This document shows, piece after piece, positions 13,305-61,049 of a DNA stretch of 64,000 bases. Below the pieces are notes generated by a model. It saw nothing but the letters and a program-made list of their open reading frames with translations. It ran no database searches and had not been told where the DNA came from. The stretch lies in the NCBI GenBank assembly GCA_949286165.1, contig CASDZK010000068.1, forward strand, positions 1 through 64,000, read 5' to 3'. Each line of letters starts with the position of its first letter. Positions within the stretch are counted from its first letter, which is position 1. Source of the DNA: an uncultured Alistipes sp. Its GTDB lineage: Bacteria > Bacteroidota > Bacteroidia > Bacteroidales > Rikenellaceae. The translations under genes and the position numbers were made by a program.

Positions 13305-14876
13305 TCAGAAACCGAAATCATCTACCACAACCTCTTCCTGGGTTTGTTGCACTTCCGGAGCTTTCGCCTTTTTCTGCACCTCGTTTCCCGCAATGAATAT
13401 TGCATCGGGCCTGACTGGACAAATGGATTCGCAGGCTCCGCAACCAATACATATTTCGGGCGTAATGGATGGAATGGTCAATCCATTCTTATACTCCACC
13501 ATATGTACGGCCTGAGTCGGGCAATGTTCCGCACAGGCTCCGCAATACTCTTCTTTGGAATAAACGACGCACTCCTCCTTATGAAACTGCACGACACCCA
13601 CTTGCGTCAGCTTTTTCTCCTCCAACGACATCTTCTGCAAAGCACCGTTCGGACAAATCTGCGTACATAAATTACACTCGAACTGACAAAATTCATGCAC
13701 GCTGAAATACATGTAAGGCTGCATTAATCCTGATATTCCGTTTTCAAAAAAAGCCGGTTTCAACACATGGACAGGACATTTGCTCACACATAACTGGCAA
13801 GCCGTACATTTCTGCCGAAAACGGGCCACCGAACCCGCTCCCGGAGGCAACGGGTAACGCCGCCGAGACGTAAGTCCCGCCGCTTTTGCCATCTTTCCTC
13901 CGACAGGCAACGCCGCAAGCGCCAACAGACTTCCGGAAATAAACCTCCGGCGAGATTCGTTAAATTCATTTGCCGGGACATCCTCTTTTACCTTCACTTT
14001 CGGTAATATGCCGCCCTTTTTTTCCGACATCCATCCCACAGGCAGATAACGCACTCCCCCTTCCTTACACTTATCCAAACAATTGAAACAAACTACGCAA
14101 CGGCTCGAATCGACAACGCCCCGCACATCATCGATACACATGGCTTTACAATCAGAAACGCATTTTTTGCAATGCGTGCATTTTTCCGTATCCAAACGCA
14201 CTCGGAACAAAGAATAGCGGGAAACCAGTCCCAACAACGTTCCCACCGGACACAAAGTATTACACCATATCCGTTTTTTCTGCCATACCAATACGACAAG
14301 AACGACCAACACAAGAGCTGACAATAACAACATGAACCAAGGCTGAGGCTCCACAGTTACATTGTAAAACGAATAATTGCCGGCACGGTTGGCAACAGCT
14401 GCAATAGCATTATTCAGATATAAAACGACAGGTTTAAAAAACGACACGGTTATACGACCGAAATTGGAATACGGATCCAACAATAAAAGAAGAAACGCGC
14501 TTCCTGCCACGTATGCTACGGTTACCCCCCCTAAAACGCCATATCGGAGATAATTATGAGGAGGTTCATATTTCGTTCTGAGCTTTCTCTTTTGTTTCGT
14601 ACGATTCATCCACCATCGCTTAACCCGCAATATCACGTCCTGAAAAATCCCCAAAGGACATAATATCGAACAATACAAACGTCCGAACAAAAGCGTAAAC
14701 AACAGAAGGAAAAGAACAATAACCACCGATCCTACCATCAATGCAGGAACAAACTGAACATGCAACAATCCGTGCATCTGAACCGGCAGCAATTCCGCGA
14801 AATCGAGAAAAAACAGCAATACGGCAAGCCCATACAAAACTGCTGCTGTTCTACGGATATATTTCAAACTCTTCAT
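13305..14876 (-). CDS. Membrane-bound polyferredoxin, NapH/NosR-like
   Basis: Inner-membrane iron-sulfur protein of 523 aa. The N-terminal 210 residues hold several membrane helices and the GRLYCSILCPLGIFQD motif of NapH/NosR/CcoG-type proteins, repeated in part as WCNTLCPVGTLLG. Then come ferredoxin motifs CTHCKKCVSDCKAMC and CVVCFNCLDKC, a Tat-like linker (RRRFISGSLLALAALPVGG) and further clusters CTACQLCVSKCP, CNLCTQICP, CGACAEHCP and CIGCGACESICP. This arrangement indicates electron transfer between the quinone pool or cytosol and a partner protein. The start codon directly abuts the stop of the DUF362 gene (TAGATG), so they form an operon, and DUF362 proteins are often found with ferredoxins. 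The redox partner is unknown. Confidence 0.85.
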   Translation of the reverse strand: MKSLKYIRRTAAVLYGLAVLLFFLDFAELLPVQMHGLLHVQFVPALMVGSVVIVLFLLLFTLLFGRLYCSILCPLGIFQDVILRVKRWWMNRTKQKRKLRTKYEPPHNYLRYGVLGGVTVAYVAGSAFLLLLLDPYSNFGRITVSFFKPVVLYLNNAIAAVANRAGNYSFYNVTVEPQPWFMLLLSALVLVVLVVLVWQKKRIWCNTLCPVGTLLGLVSRYSLFRVRLDTEKCTHCKKCVSDCKAMCIDDVRGVVDSSRCVVCFNCLDKCKEGGVRYLPVGWMSEKKGGILPKVKVKEDVPANEFNESRRRFISGSLLALAALPVGGKMAKAAGLTSRRRYPLPPGAGSVARFRQKCTACQLCVSKCPVHVLKPAFFENGISGLMQPYMYFSVHEFCQFECNLCTQICPNGALQKMSLEEKKLTQVGVVQFHKEECVVYSKEEYCGACAEHCPTQAVHMVEYKNGLTIPSITPEICIGCGACESICPVRPDAIFIAGNEVQKKAKAPEVQQTQEEVVVDDFGF

Positions 14877-15809
14877 CTACATTTTGATCCGTTTAATCTC
14901 GATTTTACTCAAATCGGATGTTCCCAAATTCAGTTTTTCGCCTAAAGCGATATGACTTACCGTAGCCAAATCCATCTCTTGTACCTGATTGAAAAACTTG
15001 ACCGCAGCCGTATCAACAGCAATGGGATCGGGCGAAGCAAAAAGCCCCTTCATGACCGCTACGTCCTCAATACTTTTCCCTCGCGGCCCGTTCTGTTTCA
15101 ACACCCGGTACGCATCCACAATATTCAAAGCCGGTTTTTTCTGAAACGTACAGACATCTGCGATACATTGCTGCAAATTATTATTGTGCATATATCCCCG
15201 GTCCCAAACAATGCCCATATAATTCTTCATGGAAATCGTCATTTTCGCACCGCCGTGGTTTTTCAGAATCGGGACATTGAACCATACGTCGCAATCAACC
15301 AAAGCCTTATGAATTTTGGCCTTTTTCATATTGACTGCCTGAGGCAATTCCACTTCCACATAGTACGACTCGTCGTTGGCCGGCAGCATTTTTCCTCCGG
15401 CGGCTTCTACCGCCGCTTTTATACCGCTCGTTTCATAACAACTTTTCCATTCGTCACAAGTATGGTCGAACACCTGCACTTCCTTCGCTCCGGCAGCCAA
15501 ACACTGTTTGACCAAAGCCCCGATCAATTCGGGATTAGCATTTCCCGCCAATTCCGGCGTACGCGCCCAACCGATATTCGGTTTGATGACAACGGTTTGT
15601 CCTTGCTTCACAAACCGACCTATCCCTCCGAATTCCGCAAGCATGCGCTCCAACATGGGAACCGGTTCGCCTCCCATAACGGCTACCATATTACCGTCGT
15701 TCGCAACCGCAGGAACACCGTCGGCAAACGCCTTGCGAATCATTCCCATATCGAGTACCGACGCGATACCGGCCGCAGCCATCCCTTTCAGAAAATCTTT
15801 TCTATCCAT
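14877..15809 (-). CDS. DUF362 domain protein with Tat-like leader
   Basis: Protein of 310 aa with a DUF362 domain, a family linked to iron-sulfur proteins but without a settled function. The leader MDRKDFLKGMAAAGIASVLD resembles a Tat signal with a single Arg-Lys pair. Family features include VVIKPNIGWARTPE, VFDHTCDEW, VPILKNHGGAKMTISMKNYMG and DPIAVDTAAVKFF. The ATG at 15809 has an AAGGAGAG Shine-Dalgarno-like sequence about 10 nt upstream; the longer frame opens with GTG at 15815. It is the first gene of the operon with the polyferredoxin, whose ATG directly follows its stop. Confidence 0.85.
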   Translation of the reverse strand: MDRKDFLKGMAAAGIASVLDMGMIRKAFADGVPAVANDGNMVAVMGGEPVPMLERMLAEFGGIGRFVKQGQTVVIKPNIGWARTPELAGNANPELIGALVKQCLAAGAKEVQVFDHTCDEWKSCYETSGIKAAVEAAGGKMLPANDESYYVEVELPQAVNMKKAKIHKALVDCDVWFNVPILKNHGGAKMTISMKNYMGIVWDRGYMHNNNLQQCIADVCTFQKKPALNIVDAYRVLKQNGPRGKSIEDVAVMKGLFASPDPIAVDTAAVKFFNQVQEMDLATVSHIALGEKLNLGTSDLSKIEIKRIKM

Positions 15810-15853
15810 AGTCACAACTCTCCTTGCATTGATTTCACAATATTTATTAAGAG

Positions 15854-16005: not shown

Positions 16006-16013
16006 TATCTTTG
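16006..16013 (+). promoter_or_regulatory. -7 element of the HTCS gene
   Basis: TATCTTTG is a perfect TAnnTTTG match 25 bp before the ATG at 16038. It overlaps a TTG at 16011 that opens the longest frame, which excludes that TTG as the start. Confidence 0.6.
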
Positions 16014-16037
16014 TATGGCTCTAATGCTACCTCCCAA

Positions 16038-19000
16038 ATGATTGGAAACAGCAAATTTTCACTCATCTTATTACCTATCATAACCGGCATTTTCGTATCG
16101 ACCTCGTTCGCTTCGAATGCCCCGTCGCTCTTTTTTTCCCGTATTTCCACAGATGCAGGTCTGTCTCAAAGTACCGTATTCTCCATTACTCAGGACAAAC
16201 AAGGGGCCATGTGGTTCGCTACATTCGACGGAATCAATAAATACGACGGCTATTCCTTTACCGTTTACCGAAATGATCCACATTCCCTTTCCAGTATTGC
16301 CGACGACATGACCCGAGTCGTCAAAACCGACCGCCGAAACAGAATATGGATCGGAACCCGCAAAGGTTTATCCTGTTACGACAGAGGAAACGATTGCTTT
16401 AAAAATTTTGAATATTTCGTAAATCACGAAAATATACAGATAAATGCGATAGAAGAAATCGCACAAGATACCCTATTGCTCGGAACGAATCGGGGCATTA
16501 TACTTTTCGATTCCGAAAAAATGGTTTTCATCCCTCCATTCATTGCCTGTTCCCCTTGTTTTTGCATTCTCAGTACCGATAAACAGATTTACCTCGGAAC
16601 CGATGACGGTTTATTGCTGTATGATTTCGAAAGACAACAGACATTTCCTGTATTTCCTTGCTTGAACGGGATCCGGATTCAGTCGATTCTCCTGCAAACG
16701 CCCGACAAATTATGGATAGCTACTGAAGGGAAAGGTCTGTATTCAATCATCCTTAAAACGAATCGCATCAAAAACTACCGACATATTCCCAACGATCCCC
16801 ATAGTCTCGCCAACGATTGTGTTCGCACTTTAACGTTGGACGCCGAAGGCAAATTATGGATCGGAACCTTAACGGGACTGAATATTTATCAGGATTCGAC
16901 AGACGCTTTTGACAGCTATTTCCACGATCCGACAGACAACTACTCGTTGTCTCAAAATTCCATCCGGGCTTTGTTTACGGATAACCAAAACGGAATGTGG
17001 GTCGGGACGTATTTCGGAGGTCTGAACTACTATCACGAATTGAAAAACCGTTTCCGACATATTCGGCAAATTCCCCGTCAAAACTCTTTAAACGACAATG
17101 TCATCAGTTGTATAGTAGAAGACGAGAATCATAATTTATGGATAGGGACAAACGACAAAGGCATCAATTTCTATGACGCCGCTTCCCGCCGATTCCATTA
17201 TTATACCCTTCAAACGAAAAATCACTCCCCGGGACTTTCTTCCAACAACATCAAAGCAATCTATATCGACGAAGAAACCGACCGTGCCTACATCGGAACC
17301 CACGGCGGCGGACTGAACGTCGTAGACCGGAAATCCGGACAGATAACTCACTTTACCAGAGAGAACAGCTCTTTGAATGACCGAAGCATTTATGCTATTT
17401 TACCATGGGAAAACCATACGTTGTTATTAGGAGCACTAAACGGTTTGACCGTTTTCGATCCCCGTACATCCTCATTTACCCCTACCCTGACTTTACCCCC
17501 CAAAAACGGGAACAACCGAATCACGGTATTATTCAAAGACTCGTCAAAACGGCTCTGGATCGGAGGCGAGAACGGCTTGTCGGTTTACCAACCCGAAGCC
17601 TCTTCCGAAAGATTTACGCGACAAAACGTTTTCGATTCCGCCATTTTATCGGACGCGTTCATACATTGCATTATAGAACGCGCTCCCGGAGAAATATGGA
17701 TAGGTACACGGCAAGGATTATTCCTCGTAAACACAAAAAACCGCCAAACCAAACATTACACCACACAGAACGGACTTCCGAACAATGTCGTATACGGAAT
17801 TCTCACGGATTTGGAACAACGTTTGTGGCTGAGTACCAATAACGGCATCAGCCGATTTTCGCCGGACACGGAAACTTTCCGGAATTTCACGCAAACAGAC
17901 GGACTACAAAACAAACAATTCAACAATTATTCCTATTGTAAGAGGTCGAACGGAGAAATGATGTTCGGAGGCATCAACGGAATCACGGCTTTTTTCCCGG
18001 AACACTTGAACGACAACCCCTATACTCCACCCGCCGTTATCAACGAATTGAAAGTTTCCGGACAACCCGTCCGGCCGAACGATGCAACAAAAATATTGGA
18101 CAAAGCCATCGACCAGACCTCTTCCATTACGCTTCGAGCTTCGCAATCGGCTTTTTCCATCGGTTTCGTCGTCTCCAATTATCTTTCAGGGCAACACGAT
18201 ACTTTCAAATACAGATTAAAAGGATACGATAAGGAATGGCATGCTTCAAAAGAACATACGGCATCTTATGCCAATCTCCCCGCCGGCACATACACCTTTC
18301 AAGTAAAAGCGGCAAACAATAACGGTTCATGGAACCCTATCCCGACGGAATTGAAAATCCGCATTCTCCCTGTCTGGTATAAAAGCTGGTGGGCCATTAT
18401 CCTGTTTTGTATTTTCGGGATTACCCTGATTCTATTCTTTCTCAGACATATCTGGTTAAGAAAAGTCATGATGGACAAAATCAATCTGGAACGTCTGGAA
18501 AAGAGACATCAAGAAGAAATCTACCGGACAAAAATGCGTTTTTTCATTCACGTCTCCCATGAATTGCGTACCCCGCTGACCCTGATGGTCGCGCCTCTTC
18601 AGGAATTACAAGAAAAAACGACAGACCCGTGGACACAAAAACAACTGCGATACCTGAAACGCAACACCGACCGATTGCTACGCCTCGTCAATCAACTGCT
18701 GGATTTCAAACGGGCGGAATCCGGTACGCTGAAACTGCAAATTGTTCGTGAAAACATAGATCCGATCGTGCGGGAACATTTCACGAATTTCGAGCAATCG
18801 GCCCGTCAAAAAAACATCGATTATCGTTACGATTCGGAAATAGGAAAACAAGAACATCTTTTCGACCGGTATTACATCGAAACAATACTGAACAATCTGC
18901 TGTCAAACGCTTTCAAATTTACGGAAACCGGGGGAAACATAACGCTTCGGGTCGCGGATACAAACGACCAACTCGTCATCGAGATAAGCGACACGGGCAT

Positions 19001-20099
19001 CGGGATTCCCATCGACCAGCAAAAACATATTTTCGACTATTTTTACCAGACGGACGATGCCCGTTCCGGAAGCGGAATAGGACTGGCTCTCGTATCGAAA
19101 CTCGTGGAATTGCATAAAGGGGAAATTACCCTGAAAAGCATTCCAGGCCAAGGCAGCACCTTCACGGTACGGCTTCCGCAAAACGAATCCGCCTACCGTA
19201 CGGAAGAAATGAAATCCGTCTCAACGGCCGCATTTTCGAGCTGCCCCGTTCTTCCGGAAATCCGGGAAACCTCCCTTCAGGAATTTCCTAACCCGAACGA
19301 CACCCGGTCACGCCCCAAAATTCTCCTTGTCGAAGACAATCCGGAAATTTTACAATACCTTTCAGAAGGATTGTCCCCCTTTTTTCAAACCTTCCAAGCC
19401 GCAAATGGCCAGGAAGGTCTCGACATTCTACACGGCAACGACCGGATAGACTTAATCGTTACCGATATCATGATGCCCGTAATGGACGGTATTCAAATGT
19501 GCCAAAAGATCAAGCAGGACATAACCGTTTGCCACATTCCCGTTATCATGTTATCTGCAAAAATCGACATCAAAGATCAACTGGAAGGTTTGCAAGTAGG
19601 AGCGGACGACTACATTCCCAAACCGTTCACGATAGCCGTACTGACAGCCAAAATACGCAACATGTTCCAAACCAGAAAACGGTTGCAGGAGTATTACGCT
19701 CGACATCTGGACGTAGAACCCGGACAAATAGCCGGCAACGTCATGGACGAAACGTTGTTAAAACGGGCTGTTTCCATCGTCGAAGAAAATATGGACAACA
19801 GTTCCTTTTCCGTCGATGAATTTGCCCAGGCAATGAATATGAGCCGGTCCAATCTTCATTTGAAACTGAAAGCCATTACCGGAGAGCCGGCCACCGCTTT
19901 CATCCGCAAAATCCGGCTCCGCAAAGCCTGCCGGTTATTGCAGGAAGGGGTTTATTCCGTCTCAGAAATCAGTACGATGGTAGGGTTCGGCACGCCCGCC
20001 TATTTTACGACATGTTTCAAGAAACATATCGGCTGTCTGCCCACGGAATACGTAAAAAAACGATCCGACCGTTACGACAGCGAAATTCCGACAGAATAA
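16038..20099 (+). CDS. Hybrid two-component system (HTCS) sensor-regulator
   Basis: One-protein signalling system that senses an oligosaccharide in the periplasm and activates neighbouring polysaccharide-utilisation genes. The 1353-aa chain has an N-terminal signal/anchor, about 14 beta-propeller repeats with the DKQGAMWFATFDGINKYDG pattern (about 35-670), a Y_Y_Y domain (YRLKGYDKEW, YTFQVKAANNNGSW, about 700-775), one transmembrane helix (about 785-805), a histidine kinase with FFIHVSHELRTPLTL (phosphoacceptor His841) and an ATPase with DTGIGIPID and GSGIGLALV. A receiver with DLIVTDIMMPVMDG (Asp1143) and a C-terminal AraC helix-turn-helix (FSVDEFAQAMNMSRSNLHLKL onward) follow. It is followed by GH88 and a PL12-like lyase, so its ligand is probably an unsaturated heparan-type disaccharide. 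That is inferred from the neighbours. Confidence 0.95.
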   Translation: MIGNSKFSLILLPIITGIFVSTSFASNAPSLFFSRISTDAGLSQSTVFSITQDKQGAMWFATFDGINKYDGYSFTVYRNDPHSLSSIADDMTRVVKTDRRNRIWIGTRKGLSCYDRGNDCFKNFEYFVNHENIQINAIEEIAQDTLLLGTNRGIILFDSEKMVFIPPFIACSPCFCILSTDKQIYLGTDDGLLLYDFERQQTFPVFPCLNGIRIQSILLQTPDKLWIATEGKGLYSIILKTNRIKNYRHIPNDPHSLANDCVRTLTLDAEGKLWIGTLTGLNIYQDSTDAFDSYFHDPTDNYSLSQNSIRALFTDNQNGMWVGTYFGGLNYYHELKNRFRHIRQIPRQNSLNDNVISCIVEDENHNLWIGTNDKGINFYDAASRRFHYYTLQTKNHSPGLSSNNIKAIYIDEETDRAYIGTHGGGLNVVDRKSGQITHFTRENSSLNDRSIYAILPWENHTLLLGALNGLTVFDPRTSSFTPTLTLPPKNGNNRITVLFKDSSKRLWIGGENGLSVYQPEASSERFTRQNVFDSAILSDAFIHCIIERAPGEIWIGTRQGLFLVNTKNRQTKHYTTQNGLPNNVVYGILTDLEQRLWLSTNNGISRFSPDTETFRNFTQTDGLQNKQFNNYSYCKRSNGEMMFGGINGITAFFPEHLNDNPYTPPAVINELKVSGQPVRPNDATKILDKAIDQTSSITLRASQSAFSIGFVVSNYLSGQHDTFKYRLKGYDKEWHASKEHTASYANLPAGTYTFQVKAANNNGSWNPIPTELKIRILPVWYKSWWAIILFCIFGITLILFFLRHIWLRKVMMDKINLERLEKRHQEEIYRTKMRFFIHVSHELRTPLTLMVAPLQELQEKTTDPWTQKQLRYLKRNTDRLLRLVNQLLDFKRAESGTLKLQIVRENIDPIVREHFTNFEQSARQKNIDYRYDSEIGKQEHLFDRYYIETILNNLLSNAFKFTETGGNITLRVADTNDQLVIEISDTGIGIPIDQQKHIFDYFYQTDDARSGSGIGLALVSKLVELHKGEITLKSIPGQGSTFTVRLPQNESAYRTEEMKSVSTAAFSSCPVLPEIRETSLQEFPNPNDTRSRPKILLVEDNPEILQYLSEGLSPFFQTFQAANGQEGLDILHGNDRIDLIVTDIMMPVMDGIQMCQKIKQDITVCHIPVIMLSAKIDIKDQLEGLQVGADDYIPKPFTIAVLTAKIRNMFQTRKRLQEYYARHLDVEPGQIAGNVMDETLLKRAVSIVEENMDNSSFSVDEFAQAMNMSRSNLHLKLKAITGEPATAFIRKIRLRKACRLLQEGVYSVSEISTMVGFGTPAYFTTCFKKHIGCLPTEYVKKRSDRYDSEIPTE

Positions 20100-20105
20100 A
20101 TCCGG

Positions 20106-20141
20106 TTTCAACATTTCCGAAAGCAATTTCAACATTTCCGA
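20106..20141 (+). promoter_or_regulatory. Perfect 15-bp direct repeat, candidate HTCS operator
   Basis: TTTCAACATTTCCGA occurs at 20106-20120 and again at 20127-20141, identical in all 15 bases and offset by 21 bp, two helical turns. The pair lies between the HTCS stop and the GH88 promoter, just upstream of the expected -33 region (about -72 to -37 from the predicted transcript start). This is the position and geometry expected for an AraC-type activator dimer. Confidence 0.7.
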
Positions 20142-20164
20142 TAGTCCGGGAAGGTTCCATCGCA

Positions 20165-20172
20165 TACCTTTG
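20165..20172 (+). promoter_or_regulatory. -7 element of the GH88/heparinase operon
   Basis: TACCTTTG, a perfect TAnnTTTG match, 22 bp before the GH88 ATG. There is no good -33 TTTG, as expected for a promoter needing an activator. Confidence 0.65.
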
Positions 20173-20194: not shown

Positions 20195-21466
20195 ATGAAG
20201 AACCGAATTTTATTAAGTTCATGGCTGATTTTAGGCATTGCCTGCACTTCTGCAAAAACGGAAACCGACGATTGGTTGAAAAAGGGAATCGACACGGCCG
20301 CCGCCCAATTAAAATCGATGACCGAGAAAACCAGGGCGAACGCCGATACGATTCTACTCCCGCGTTCTGTCCGGACAACATTCGATACAGCTTTCATCAC
20401 GCACCAACTCGGAAGAGCATTTCAGGAATCCGAACCGGAAATTCCCGGTTCTAAAACCGGAGAAATACGGTTTTGTTCCACCATTTACGATTGGACCAGC
20501 GGTTTTTTTCCCGGCAGTTTATGGTACATGTACGAATTGACGGGAAACGATTTTTTCAAAGAACAAGCAATCATGCACACGAACCTGTTGAATCCCGTAA
20601 AAACCCATACCGGCACACACGATTTAGGCTTCATGATGTTTTGCAGTTTCGGGAATGCCGAACGACTGGCCCGCAACGACACCATCGCGCCCATATTGCA
20701 GCAAACAGCGGACAATCTGATTACCCGATTCGACCCTAATATCGGCTGTATCCGGTCATGGGATTTCGGACCATGGAATTTTCCGGTTATCATAGACAAC
20801 ATGATGAACCTCGAACTCTTGTTCCATGTCAGCCGGCAATCCGGGAATCCCGAATACAAAAGAATCGCCGTCACACATGCCAATACCACGTTAAAGCACC
20901 ATTTCCGTCCGGACGCATCTTCCTTTCATGTCGTCAGCTACAGAAACGACGGCAGCGTAGAATGCCGGCAAACCTTTCAAGGAAAAGCCAACGAATCCTG
21001 TTGGGCAAGAGGGCAAGCCTGGGCTTTGTACGGTTACACGACATGTTTTCGGGAGACCGGAGATACAACCTATCTGGACATGGCAAAAAATATTGCGACA
21101 TTAATCATGACACGGGTAACAACAGACGATGCTGTACCCTTCTGGGACTACGATGCTCCCGATTTGCCGGAAACGCCGCGAGACGCTTCCGCCGCAGCCA
21201 TTACCGCATCCGCCATGTTGTCGCTTTATCGCCTGACTTCCGATTCCAAATATTTCGATTACGCTGAAAAAATTCTGAAAAACCTTTCCTCGCCCGTCTA
21301 TCTGGCTTCGGCGGGAAGCAATCAGGGATTCGTATTGAAGCACTCTACCGGTTCCCTGCCACACGGTTCGGAAATAGACTCCCCGTTGAATTATGCCGAT
21401 TATTATTATCTGGAATCCCTGAAAAAATACATGGATATACGAAACCTCGATTATAAAAACTTATAA
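20195..21466 (+). CDS. GH88 unsaturated glucuronyl hydrolase
   Basis: Hydrolyses the 4,5-unsaturated uronic acid left at the non-reducing end by polysaccharide lyases. The 423-aa protein has an N-terminal leader with a lipobox-like GIAC at about residues 14-17, so it may be a surface or periplasmic lipoprotein. Family motifs include YDWTSGFFPGSLWYMYE, THDLGFMMFCSFGNA with a candidate catalytic Asp, WDFGPWNFPVIIDNMMNLE with the second Asp, and WARGQAWALYGYT. The start at 20195 is supported by the promoter at 20165-20172; an open frame reaching back to 20012 overlaps the HTCS gene and is rejected. A heparinase-like lyase follows after 12 bp, which would supply its substrate. Confidence 0.92.
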   Translation: MKNRILLSSWLILGIACTSAKTETDDWLKKGIDTAAAQLKSMTEKTRANADTILLPRSVRTTFDTAFITHQLGRAFQESEPEIPGSKTGEIRFCSTIYDWTSGFFPGSLWYMYELTGNDFFKEQAIMHTNLLNPVKTHTGTHDLGFMMFCSFGNAERLARNDTIAPILQQTADNLITRFDPNIGCIRSWDFGPWNFPVIIDNMMNLELLFHVSRQSGNPEYKRIAVTHANTTLKHHFRPDASSFHVVSYRNDGSVECRQTFQGKANESCWARGQAWALYGYTTCFRETGDTTYLDMAKNIATLIMTRVTTDDAVPFWDYDAPDLPETPRDASAAAITASAMLSLYRLTSDSKYFDYAEKILKNLSSPVYLASAGSNQGFVLKHSTGSLPHGSEIDSPLNYADYYYLESLKKYMDIRNLDYKNL

Positions 21467-21478
21467 AACCGTACGATT

Positions 21479-23476
21479 ATGAAATTTTTACCGATATGGA
21501 TCGGACTTTTCATGTTTTGCGCAAGTCCCATACATGCGCAGGAACTGAACCCGAATGTCTTCGCGCTGCTGAACCTCGACGCTCCCGGACTGGAGCAAGT
21601 GAAAGAATCGCACCGCGCCGGAAAGGACCGGGAGGCTGCCGAAAATTTACTCGAATATTACCGCAACCGCACCCATGTCCATTTCCCGGATATTTCCGAC
21701 CTGACCCAAGTAACCATCAGTTCCAAAGAACAGCAATGGGCGGACGATGCGTTGGAACATACCTTTTTTTCCCACGAAGGCTACCAACCCTCCTTCAATT
21801 ACGGAAAGGACATCGACTGGAGATACTGGCCGGTACGGGACAACGAACTTCGCTGGCAGCTCCACCGGCACAAATGGTTCGGAGCCATGGGACAGGCCTA
21901 TTGCGTATCGGGCGATGAAAAATACGCCAAAGAATGGGTATTTCAATACATGGACTGGATAAAGAAGAACCCGCTGGTAAAAATAGATCCGGAAAAATAC
22001 GAACTGACGGACGACATGAAAATCAAAGACGATGCGGAAAACTCCCGTTTCGCATGGCGTCCGTTGGAAACCAGCCATCGTCTGCAAGACCAGATCCGAC
22101 AATTCCTGTATTTCGTTCATTCCCCGCATTTCACACCGGAATTTCTTACCGAATTTCTCGTCAATTATCACAAACACGCCGAACATATCCTGCACAATTA
22201 CTCCAAACAGGGGAACCATTTGTTGTTCGAAGCCCAACGCATGTTTTTCGCAGGCACCTTCTTCCCGGAATTCAAGGAGGCGGCCGATTGGAGAAAAAGC
22301 GGCATAGATATTCTGAACCGGGAAATCGACATTCAGGTATATCCGGATGGAGGACAGTTCGAACTGGACCCCCACTACCATTTGGCTTCCATCGAAATAT
22401 TCTGCAAGGCGTTGGAAATGGCGGACGCAAACGGTCTAAGAAACGAATTTCCGCAACATTATACGGACATGATCGAAAAAATGATTATGTTCTACATCAA
22501 CATCTGTTTCCCGGACTATACCAACCCTTGTTTCAGCGACGCCAAAATAACCGGGAAAAACGGTATAATCAGAAACCTCAGGAAATGGTCCGCTATTTTT
22601 CCCGATAACCAATACATCAAATATTTCGCTACGGACGGAAAAAAGGGCAAACTTCCGGAATATTTGTCCCAAGCGTTCAAAGAGTCCGGTTTCTTCGTTT
22701 TCAGGAATGCATGGCAGGATCCCGCGACCGTCATGATCGTAAAAGCCGGTCCTGAAGGGGAATGGCACTGCCAACCGGACAACGGCACTTTCGAGCTTTG
22801 GATAAACGGCAAAAACTTTTTCCCCGATTCGGGAAGCTACATATACGGAGGCGACGATGAAGTAATGGCATGGCGCAACTGGTTCCGGCAAACCAGAGTA
22901 CATAACACGCTCACGCTCGGCAATGAAAACATCACGACAACCGACTCTAAAACTCTGCTCTGGGAAGGGACAGGCGACCTGCAAAAATTAGTTACGGAAA
23001 ATCAAAGTTACGAAAACCTGAAACACCGAAGGTCCGTATTTTTCATCGAGAACAAATTTTTCGTCATCGTCGATGAAGCCATCGGAAATGCATTAGGAGA
23101 CGTCAACTTGCATTTCGAGTTGTGCGAAGGCCCGGTAAAAATCGATTCCGTCCGGCACACTTTAACCACGGAGAACGACGGCAACACGCAAATTTTCATG
23201 CAGTGTTTCGGTTCCCACCCCCTGCACCTGAGGCAAGAAGAAGGCTGGTATTCGACGGCATACCGTAAAAAAGAGGAAAGGCCGGCCGTAGCCTTCGACA
23301 TTGAAAAAACGAACGCAGCCCCTGTAAGGTATATTACGGTTATTTACCCGGTCCAGGAAAATTCCACACCCAAAATATCCTGTAAGTTCAATTCAGCCGC
23401 TTTCAGTGATCAAGGCATGGACGTCGATATAAAAATAGACAAAAAACGGTACCGTCTCCGCTACGAGCTTCATTGA
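21479..23476 (+). CDS. Heparinase II/III family polysaccharide lyase, PL12-like
   Basis: Secreted lyase of 665 aa with a signal peptide (MKFLPIWIGLFMFCASPIHA). The N-terminal (alpha/alpha) domain has IDWRYWPVRDNELRWQLHRH, RPLETSHRLQDQIRQF and SKQGNHLLFEAQRMFFAGTF. The catalytic Asn of PL12 enzymes would be the one in GNH and the catalytic Tyr the one in FELDPHYHLASIE. The C-terminal beta-sandwich starts around FFVFRNAW and contains HCQPDNGTFELWINGKNFFPDSG, with the expected metal/active-site His. PL12 enzymes cleave heparan sulfate or heparosan by beta-elimination, and the adjacent GH88 fits that product. There is no sulfatase nearby, so a low-sulfated substrate is suggested by context only. 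Confidence 0.9.
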   Translation: MKFLPIWIGLFMFCASPIHAQELNPNVFALLNLDAPGLEQVKESHRAGKDREAAENLLEYYRNRTHVHFPDISDLTQVTISSKEQQWADDALEHTFFSHEGYQPSFNYGKDIDWRYWPVRDNELRWQLHRHKWFGAMGQAYCVSGDEKYAKEWVFQYMDWIKKNPLVKIDPEKYELTDDMKIKDDAENSRFAWRPLETSHRLQDQIRQFLYFVHSPHFTPEFLTEFLVNYHKHAEHILHNYSKQGNHLLFEAQRMFFAGTFFPEFKEAADWRKSGIDILNREIDIQVYPDGGQFELDPHYHLASIEIFCKALEMADANGLRNEFPQHYTDMIEKMIMFYINICFPDYTNPCFSDAKITGKNGIIRNLRKWSAIFPDNQYIKYFATDGKKGKLPEYLSQAFKESGFFVFRNAWQDPATVMIVKAGPEGEWHCQPDNGTFELWINGKNFFPDSGSYIYGGDDEVMAWRNWFRQTRVHNTLTLGNENITTTDSKTLLWEGTGDLQKLVTENQSYENLKHRRSVFFIENKFFVIVDEAIGNALGDVNLHFELCEGPVKIDSVRHTLTTENDGNTQIFMQCFGSHPLHLRQEEGWYSTAYRKKEERPAVAFDIEKTNAAPVRYITVIYPVQENSTPKISCKFNSAAFSDQGMDVDIKIDKKRYRLRYELH

Positions 23477-59295: not shown

Positions 59296-59946
59296 TTATT
59301 CGAACTTTATTTTTCCGAAATATTCGGGAACATGAAAATTGGGTTCAGCAGTCGCGATCGGATACTTAGATAAAAAATGAGGTATCGATAGAGCGTCTCC
59401 GCATTTGTAAAAATTCGCCCGGGCTTCTACTCCATTCAAAGAAGCGAATCGATGTTTAAAAAATACCGTCCGAGGAATAATAATGGTCAAGGCCCAACTA
59501 TTTTTGTCACTCGACTTCTCTTCTTCAAACGAAATCCGAGGCAAAGACGGATAACGTAAAATAGTTTTTAAAACGGTTGGTCCGGCATGTTCGGCCAACG
59601 GCTTTTCTTTTCGAAAAGCCAATAAAGCCGTTCCTATGCAGTTAAATTCAAAATTATAGTAACCCGTATCATCGAAAGAAATAAAAAATTCGACGCACGA
59701 ATCGGTCCAAACCGCTCCGTTATCTTCCATAACTCGAGCCATCGTACACTCCTCTTGCACACGATATCGAAGATACAGACAATCTTCGTCATGCGCAATG
59801 CTGAAATTTGCGGAGGGCGAATACGGATATCCTTTCCAATTGACTGTATCGATCCGGTAAGCGGGCAGAGCATCCAACCTCCTGTTCAATTCCTCAGGCA
59901 TTTCTTTTCCTGAAACGGCAATACGGGGTACTTGCAATGTTTCCAT
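59296..59946 (-). CDS. CBM9-like carbohydrate-binding domain protein
   Basis: Protein of 216 aa with a beta-sandwich fold similar to family 9 carbohydrate-binding/DOMON-like domains (GYPYSPSANFSIAHDEDCLYLRYRVQEE, DNGAVWTDSCVEFFISFDD, YYNFEFNCIGTALLAFRKE, WALTIIIPRTVFF). No signal peptide is evident, so it may be cytosolic. The ATG at 59946 overlaps the stop of the kinase-like gene by one base (TGATG); a longer frame extends into that gene and is rejected. It is in an operon with the kinase-like gene, so a sugar ligand is plausible. Confidence 0.8.
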   Translation of the reverse strand: METLQVPRIAVSGKEMPEELNRRLDALPAYRIDTVNWKGYPYSPSANFSIAHDEDCLYLRYRVQEECTMARVMEDNGAVWTDSCVEFFISFDDTGYYNFEFNCIGTALLAFRKEKPLAEHAGPTVLKTILRYPSLPRISFEEEKSSDKNSWALTIIIPRTVFFKHRFASLNGVEARANFYKCGDALSIPHFLSKYPIATAEPNFHVPEYFGKIKFE

Positions 59947-61049
59947 CACGCCTTCAATTTTTCCAGTTCTTGTTCTACCACCTTTTGCATAGCTCCGAAC
60001 TGCTCTTCCATGCTGCACAACAGCTTATATTGAGCATGTGTACGCACCAAATTATGTTCCGGATATTTAATCTTATAATACGTATCCCCATTGATATAAT
60101 CCATCAAGAACCGCAATACTTGTTCATAAGTGATGTATTTGGCGGAAAAAGCGAGGTATTCTTTTTCGTAGTCGTTCAAAAACGAAGCGGTTTGCGAAAG
60201 ATAGCCGGCCGTATATCCCTGAAACATGTCCATACTCATAGATACTTTATTCAAATCGCGATCATCTTCCGCTCCGGTATTGGTATAAGAACGAATGGCA
60301 TCCCCGAAATCATTCAGGCAAGTACTGCCCAACACCGTATCCAGATCGATAACGCACAATACGTTACCCGACTTATCGAACAATATATTATTGATCTTCG
60401 TGTCATTATGGGTTACTCTTGTCGGAATCTTCCCGCTTTCTACCAATTCCCAAAATTTCAACATTTCCGAACGTCGGCTTTCTATCCAAGCGATTTCTTC
60501 CTGTAATCCGGCAACTCGTCCGGCAGCGTTGTTTTTCACAGCCTCGTCCCATTGATCGAAACGGAACCGGATATTGTGGAAACCCGGCAAAATATCGGCC
60601 AATTTCCCTTGAAAATCAGCCAACATGCTCTGGAACTGCCCGATGCCTTTTCCTCCTTGATAAGCCAATTCCGGCGTATCGGCACCATTATAGGCGATCG
60701 TATCGTCTATGAACAAACATACAGCCCAATACTCTCCGTCATCCGTTTTATAGTACAATTTACCATCTTTGGCAGGAATAATCGTCAAGGATTCGCGCAA
60801 CGGATCTCCTCCTCTCCGCTCGATCTTCATTTTCAAATGATCCGTTACCATCTTGATATTCTGCATCATTGCAGGAATATCCGTAAAAATGTTTTTATTT
60901 TTTCGTTGCAAGATATAGCGAGGAGCAGCAGGCTCTTTCAAACGGATAATAAAAGTGTCATTAATGAACCCTTCTCCCAAAGGTTGAACGGTCGCTACGG
61001 TCCCTTCCAATTGAAACCGGTTACTGATTTCTTCTAAATTATAAGCCAT
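59946..61049 (-). CDS. Aminoglycoside-phosphotransferase-fold kinase, NahK-like
   Basis: Kinase of 367 aa with the APH/choline kinase fold. Nucleotide-side sequence: LGEGFINDTFII. Catalytic loop THNDTKINNILFD (Asp in HND, with Asn in the metal site) and the metal Asp in VIDLDTVL. The HNDTKINN form matches N-acetylhexosamine 1-kinases rather than antibiotic-resistance APH enzymes, which suggests a 1-phosphorylation of an amino sugar such as GlcNAc or GalNAc; this is inferred from a motif only. It is the first gene of an operon with the CBM9-like gene. Its coding strand includes the complement of the 15-mer used twice upstream of GH88 (60456-60470), probably by chance. Confidence 0.75.
   Translation of the reverse strand: MAYNLEEISNRFQLEGTVATVQPLGEGFINDTFIIRLKEPAAPRYILQRKNKNIFTDIPAMMQNIKMVTDHLKMKIERRGGDPLRESLTIIPAKDGKLYYKTDDGEYWAVCLFIDDTIAYNGADTPELAYQGGKGIGQFQSMLADFQGKLADILPGFHNIRFRFDQWDEAVKNNAAGRVAGLQEEIAWIESRRSEMLKFWELVESGKIPTRVTHNDTKINNILFDKSGNVLCVIDLDTVLGSTCLNDFGDAIRSYTNTGAEDDRDLNKVSMSMDMFQGYTAGYLSQTASFLNDYEKEYLAFSAKYITYEQVLRFLMDYINGDTYYKIKYPEHNLVRTHAQYKLLCSMEEQFGAMQKVVEQELEKLKA

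Follow-up and report, generated by a model that had tools for sequence, protein, structure and literature searches.

Gene organization at the locus

The window (the whole 64-kb stretch of DNA that was analysed) carries a gene for a hybrid two-component system (HTCS) regulator, followed on the same strand by two genes for the breakdown of heparin-type polysaccharides, with a short direct repeat between the regulator gene and the first of these. The features are as follows, operator units being predictions and the -7 box being matched to its consensus.

16011 to 20099, plus strand: HTCS regulator, 1362 aa, with (Pfam) Reg_prop beta-propeller sensor, Y_Y_Y, HisKA, HATPase_c, receiver and AraC-type HTH_18 domains
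20087 to 20093, plus strand: possible weak third unit TCCGACA (5/7), offset 78, at the 3' end of the HTCS gene
20106 to 20120, plus strand: predicted operator unit 1 (distal), TTTCAACATTTCCGA, its TTCAACA core beginning 58 bp before the -7 box
20127 to 20141, plus strand: predicted operator unit 2 (proximal), TTTCAACATTTCCGA, its core beginning 37 bp before the -7 box
20165 to 20172, plus strand: Bacteroidota-type -7 box TACCTTTG (TAnnTTTG)
20195 to 21466, plus strand: GH88-like unsaturated glucuronyl hydrolase with N-terminal DUF4995 (Pfam; PDB 3wiw, 370 bits)
21479 to 23476, plus strand: heparin/heparan-sulfate lyase HepC, heparinase II/III family (NCBIfam NF045573; PDB 5jmd, 994 bits)

Among solved sensors, that of the HTCS is nearest to PDB 4a2l (902 bits over residues 28-792, against 279 bits for the next best structure), which is BT4663, the heparin sensor of B. 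thetaiotaomicron. Its receiver carries CHIP (C148-P151 of alignment A1) and is thereby a receiver of the S/CHIP type. In the PDB comparison the GH88-like protein is nearest to 3wiw, a family-88 hydrolase, and then to unsaturated glucuronyl hydrolases; its start at 20195 is supported because the DUF4995 profile matches from residue 1. HepC was called by NCBIfam NF045573 at 783.5 bits, the cutoff being 700. The two genes are separated by 12 bp and likely belong to the same operon.

The first-pass annotation had placed the repeat between the regulator gene and its presumed target, and this is the arrangement found, with the HTCS gene directly upstream and GH88/HepC directly downstream. The repeat precedes polysaccharide-degrading genes that adjoin an HTCS with an AraC-type domain, and the linkage is to heparin/heparan degradation, both as HepC and GH88 in the window and, in relatives, as PULs with lyase orthologues near the HTCS. 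On the other side of the HTCS gene, upstream and on the minus strand (13305-15815), genes for a ferredoxin-rich protein and a DUF362 protein adjoin each other; these are unrelated to the operator.

The repeat pair and its rarity

The 15-mer TTTCAACATTTCCGA occurs exactly at 20106-20120 and 20127-20141, so that the perfect 15-bp direct repeat with a 21-bp offset first reported here is present as described, and the span given for it, 20106-20172, begins with the first repeat and closes with the -7 box, as had been implied. The likeness continues beyond the 15-mer (TTTCAACATTTCCGA-A-AG against TTTCAACATTTCCGA-T-AG, 17 of 18 positions identical). The stretch 20106-20141 thus holds two conserved sites in direct repeat, with a centre-to-centre distance of 21 bp in the window and 20-22 bp in relatives. 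TCCGACA at 20087-20093, a conceivable third unit, may be a chance match.

The pair is the only exact 15-mer pair at an offset of 15-60 bp in the 64-kb window; 30 Markov shuffles of the window gave none, and the chance expectation of an exact 15-mer pair within the 95-bp HTCS-GH88 intergenic region is about 5e-7. Allowing up to 2 mismatches, the window contains 4 sites that match TTTCAACATTTCCGA, whereas shuffling gives an expectation of 0.54. Across the whole 2.56-Mb assembly it occurs exactly three times, always on the window's own contig, and the reversed TTTCAACATTTCCGA, used as a control, had no match in the assembly even at 2 mismatches. The pair TTTCAACA-N13-TTTCAACA with fewer than 2 mismatches is found at one site in the 2.56 Mb, namely in this repeat.

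The third exact copy of TTTCAACATTTCCGA, at 60456-60470, sits inside a kinase-like gene and has no partner, again as the first-pass annotation had described it. The gene belongs to the APH family (59946-61049, minus strand), and the copy is antisense to its coding sequence. Its neighbours in the genome (26 with two mismatches and 2 with one) lead to about 0.03-0.04 exact copies expected by chance, and for this reason the copy is mildly surprising. It was rejected as a second operator, being antisense in coding sequence, partnerless and with nothing pointing to a function, and is probably due to chance. When the same genome was searched for a regulon, no paired site besides the one between HTCS and GH88 had fewer than 2 mismatches. 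Twelve pairs with 2 mismatches were checked and rejected as further operators, since all twelve lack a -7 box at a distance of 37 bp and the majority are inside long ORFs.

Promoter architecture

TAnnTTTG is the consensus of the Bacteroidota -7 box and is matched by TACCTTTG at 20165-20172; the start site is predicted to lie a few bases downstream of this box. For the -33 box (TTTG/TTG) no TTG is present anywhere in 20081-20168, and the GH88 promoter therefore has no recognisable -33 box. Between the proximal repeat (20127-20141) and the -7 box there are 23 bp, which puts this repeat at about the usual position of a -33 box. The repeat had been described as lying just upstream of the -33 position: the repeats are indeed upstream of the -7 box, but there is no -33 box and the proximal repeat occupies approximately its place. 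A missing -33 box fits an activator-dependent promoter.

Conservation at orthologous loci

The TTCAACA core is common to the orthologous loci of four other genomes, one of the same genus and the others from three other families. In the congeneric genome G001 (HTCS orthologue 61% identical in the best segment, followed by a lyase gene), TTCAACA stands 100, 79 and 37 bp before TACTTTTG, two of the copies being inside the coding end of the HTCS gene. In G325 (54%) it stands 99 and 78 bp before TAATTTTG, and in G032 (46%) TTCAACA at 78 bp is accompanied by TTAGACA at 99 bp, in both cases ahead of a PUL operon. The earlier annotation had suggested looking for the paired repeat in related species; in these three genomes its core stands on the same phase before a linked lyase gene or PUL operon.

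That annotation had also made its reading depend on conservation upstream of orthologous GH88 genes, and this is seen in G424 (locus L235; 44%), where the gene order HTCS-GH88-heparan lyase is that of the window. Its HTCS-GH88 gap contains four units spaced 21-22 bp apart, at 100, 79, 57 and 37 bp before the -7-like box TAATATTG (one mismatch), two of the four being exact TTCAACA, and the last unit stands 37 bp before the box as it does in the window.

In the 140-bp regions of the five promoters, all 10 exact TTCAACA copies fall at 37+21n ±1 bp (37, 58, 79, 100) before the -7 box; the nominal probability of this phasing is optimistic, to be read as strong but not literal, because the comb was defined post hoc and copies within one promoter are related. 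Each of the 10 copies is accompanied by a second box that fits YGANA with no more than 1 mismatch, the background rate being 13%. Sequence comparison gives a bipartite repeat unit of about TTcaACAaaanYGAaA, that is, TTcaACA and then YGAaA about 11 bp on; in the unit table behind it only the second box is independent, because some units were picked by first-box likeness. Exact TTCAACA pairs at 20-22 bp are present at four orthologous loci (the window, L131, L183, L230), and among 210 permutations of the 7-mer no other had more than 2 such pairs in orthologous loci.

Conservation before the targets of orthologous regulators is therefore clear in G001, G325/G727, G424 and G032, and weaker or 22-bp forms of the repeat occur in G253, G254, G257 and G708. 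Three g19 orthologues have the core in a 20-22-bp pair (one exact, two degenerate) facing a gene divergent from the HTCS, and these pairs are out of the 37+21n phase relative to the box tested. At the orthologous locus of Bacteroides oleiciplenus the pair, TTACACAAAAGTATAAG/GTAGACATAATCGCAAG at 21 bp, is weaker. No clear TTCAACA pair was found in many of the orthologous loci scanned (most of genus g22, plus G506, G554 and G285), so either the core there has drifted or the stretches read do not include the sites. Some orthologous loci (L217, L252) do show a drifted core, TTnnACA. In G010, where the HTCS gene stands directly before the HepC gene, no such repeat was found.

Two further repeat arrays were observed near these loci. 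An intergenic array of 22-bp direct repeats, with several types in succession, lies at L238:9094-9340 (G325), in the same contig region as the heparin locus. Tandem 22-bp repeats with the core CAGTATACGACT lie at L251:6398-6450 and L252:580-650, near the HTCS_Hep loci of G708 and G788, and may be operators of another regulator.

Two accounts of the repeat that do without a DNA-binding protein bear on these data. It could be an accident of mutation, through replication slippage that left a short tandem duplication, or of coding, if the GH88 protein began further upstream and its frame there encoded the peptide repeat STFPKAI-STFPI. A period of 21 is divisible by three, and the open GH88 frame reaches back to 20012. 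We consider this very improbable, as the GH88 protein started at 20195 begins with DUF4995 at residue 1 and a lipoprotein-like signal, and a slippage copy would not share its core, phase and -7 box distance with promoters of other genera. The position of the repeat 3' of the HTCS gene on the same strand would also suit an RNA-level element, namely a leader, attenuator or terminator of the HTCS transcript; this is just as improbable, since the repeats are direct, not inverted, and the conserved elements are upstream of the -7 box, two of the G001 units being inside the HTCS coding end, and therefore precede the start of the target's transcript.

Repeats at other HTCS genes

The flanks of 74 other HTCS genes from diverse Bacteroidota were scanned for direct repeats of at least 14/16. 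Their counts peak at 21 bp (6 repeats) and 22 bp (3); other periods had 0-2, and 130 distant control regions gave 0-1. Where a TAnnTTTG box lies at the locus of another HTCS gene, direct repeats of this kind next to it have a period of 21 bp (5 boxes) or 22 bp (3 boxes), with none at the 11 other periods (16-20 and 23-28 bp). Clear 21-22-bp direct repeats flank other HTCS genes at L060:5824, L067:3682, L071:5802, L072:5830 and L088:9326; their cores are unrelated, e.g. TTTGCCCACGTTT and TTTTACCCAAACG, and they are candidate operators for their HTCS regulators.

Promoter-proximal repeats are bound by many regulators, and binding by the HTCS is here a prediction, so the pair might instead be the target of a different regulator, e.g. 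a catabolite or global AraC/CRP-type factor. This is unlikely: the motif tracks HTCS_Hep orthologues across families, beside the HTCS or its PUL operon, the genome itself has one good paired site, unlike what a global regulator would have, and 21-22-bp repeats are enriched in HTCS-flanking DNA.

Proposed operator and mechanism

With a probability of roughly 90%, the repeat serves as operator for the neighbouring HTCS, which would be a heparin/heparan-sulfate regulator of the BT4663 type, and it is very probably the place where this HTCS binds to turn on the heparin-digesting genes. The repeat sequence was obtained directly, as were its rarity, conservation and phasing and the gene families, and the latter four agree in supporting the operator reading first put forward for this pair; binding and activation we infer from them. 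The geometry had been thought to suit an AraC-type activator dimer, and the 21-bp spacing matches the published structure of HTCS motifs (PMC3878776).

In the proposed mechanism, an oligosaccharide would bind the periplasmic beta-propeller sensor of the HTCS, whose kinase would phosphorylate the fused receiver, and this phosphorylation would free the AraC-type DNA-binding domain from an inhibitory contact with the receiver. The two DNA-binding domains of the HTCS dimer would then take the two direct repeats, which are separated by two helical turns (21 bp) and face the same side of the DNA, and the bipartite unit would place the two helix-turn-helix motifs of each AraC-type domain in successive major grooves. 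As the proximal unit lies where the -33 box would be, the HTCS, once bound, would bring RNA polymerase to the promoter and activate the GH88-HepC operon. Phosphorylation control is inferred by analogy: the S/CHIP receiver motif marks phosphorylation-controlled DNA binding (PMC11253607), and conservation of CHIP in the receiver suggests phosphorylation-gated release of the DNA-binding domain, as reported for BT4663 and others (PMC11253607).

More tentatively, operators of BT4663-type HTCSs could in general be more than simple dimer sites, with two to four units arrayed every 21 bp in fixed register to the -7 box (37, 58, 79, 100 bp), so that several dimers may line up on one DNA face, and the number and strength of the units may set the promoter threshold in each species.

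Comparison with known systems

In AraC-type activator sites (araI-like), a pair of direct repeats is spaced by about 21 bp, and the proximal repeat adjoins the upstream promoter element. The window is alike in the spacing of its two direct repeats and in the position of the proximal one at the upstream promoter element; it differs in that the regulator is a membrane-bound hybrid kinase and the promoter is of the Bacteroidota -7/-33 type.

Among HTCSs, direct repeats averaging 21 bp were predicted for 16 B. thetaiotaomicron regulators by Ravcheev et al. 2013, HTCS_Hep included, the latter with a direct repeat before BT4662, BT4675 and BT4658 (PMC3878776). The operator architecture in the window was therefore already known. 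A response-regulator fragment of BT4663 binds the bt4662 promoter in gel shifts (PMC11253607); no footprinted HTCS operators were found in our literature search. The window resembles the Bacteroides HTCS operators (PMC3878776) in its two-site direct repeat, at their average of 21 bp, before polysaccharide-degradation genes linked to an HTCS gene, but lies outside the genus Bacteroides and has a two-gene GH88/lyase target with no SusC/SusD seen adjoining; what is added here is that the units are phased to the -7 box and number 2 to 4 in relatives. With HTCS_Hep (BT4663) and the bt4662 promoter it shares the nearest solved sensor, the heparin/heparan sulfate pathway and the direct repeat, the comparison being one of architecture.

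Conclusions

The novelty is modest and consists of the BT4663-type core motif outside Bacteroides (about TTcaACAaaanYGAaA), the fixed phase to the -7 box and the variable number of units. These comparative data are independent of the original prediction and support 21-bp direct-repeat operators for HTCSs outside Bacteroides, and for the heparin regulator they specify a core motif and a distance to the promoter. A sequence scan for phased repeats ahead of -7 boxes would then be able to find HTCS regulons, and the pair lends itself to simple constructs with which to examine how DNA is read by a membrane-bound hybrid kinase.
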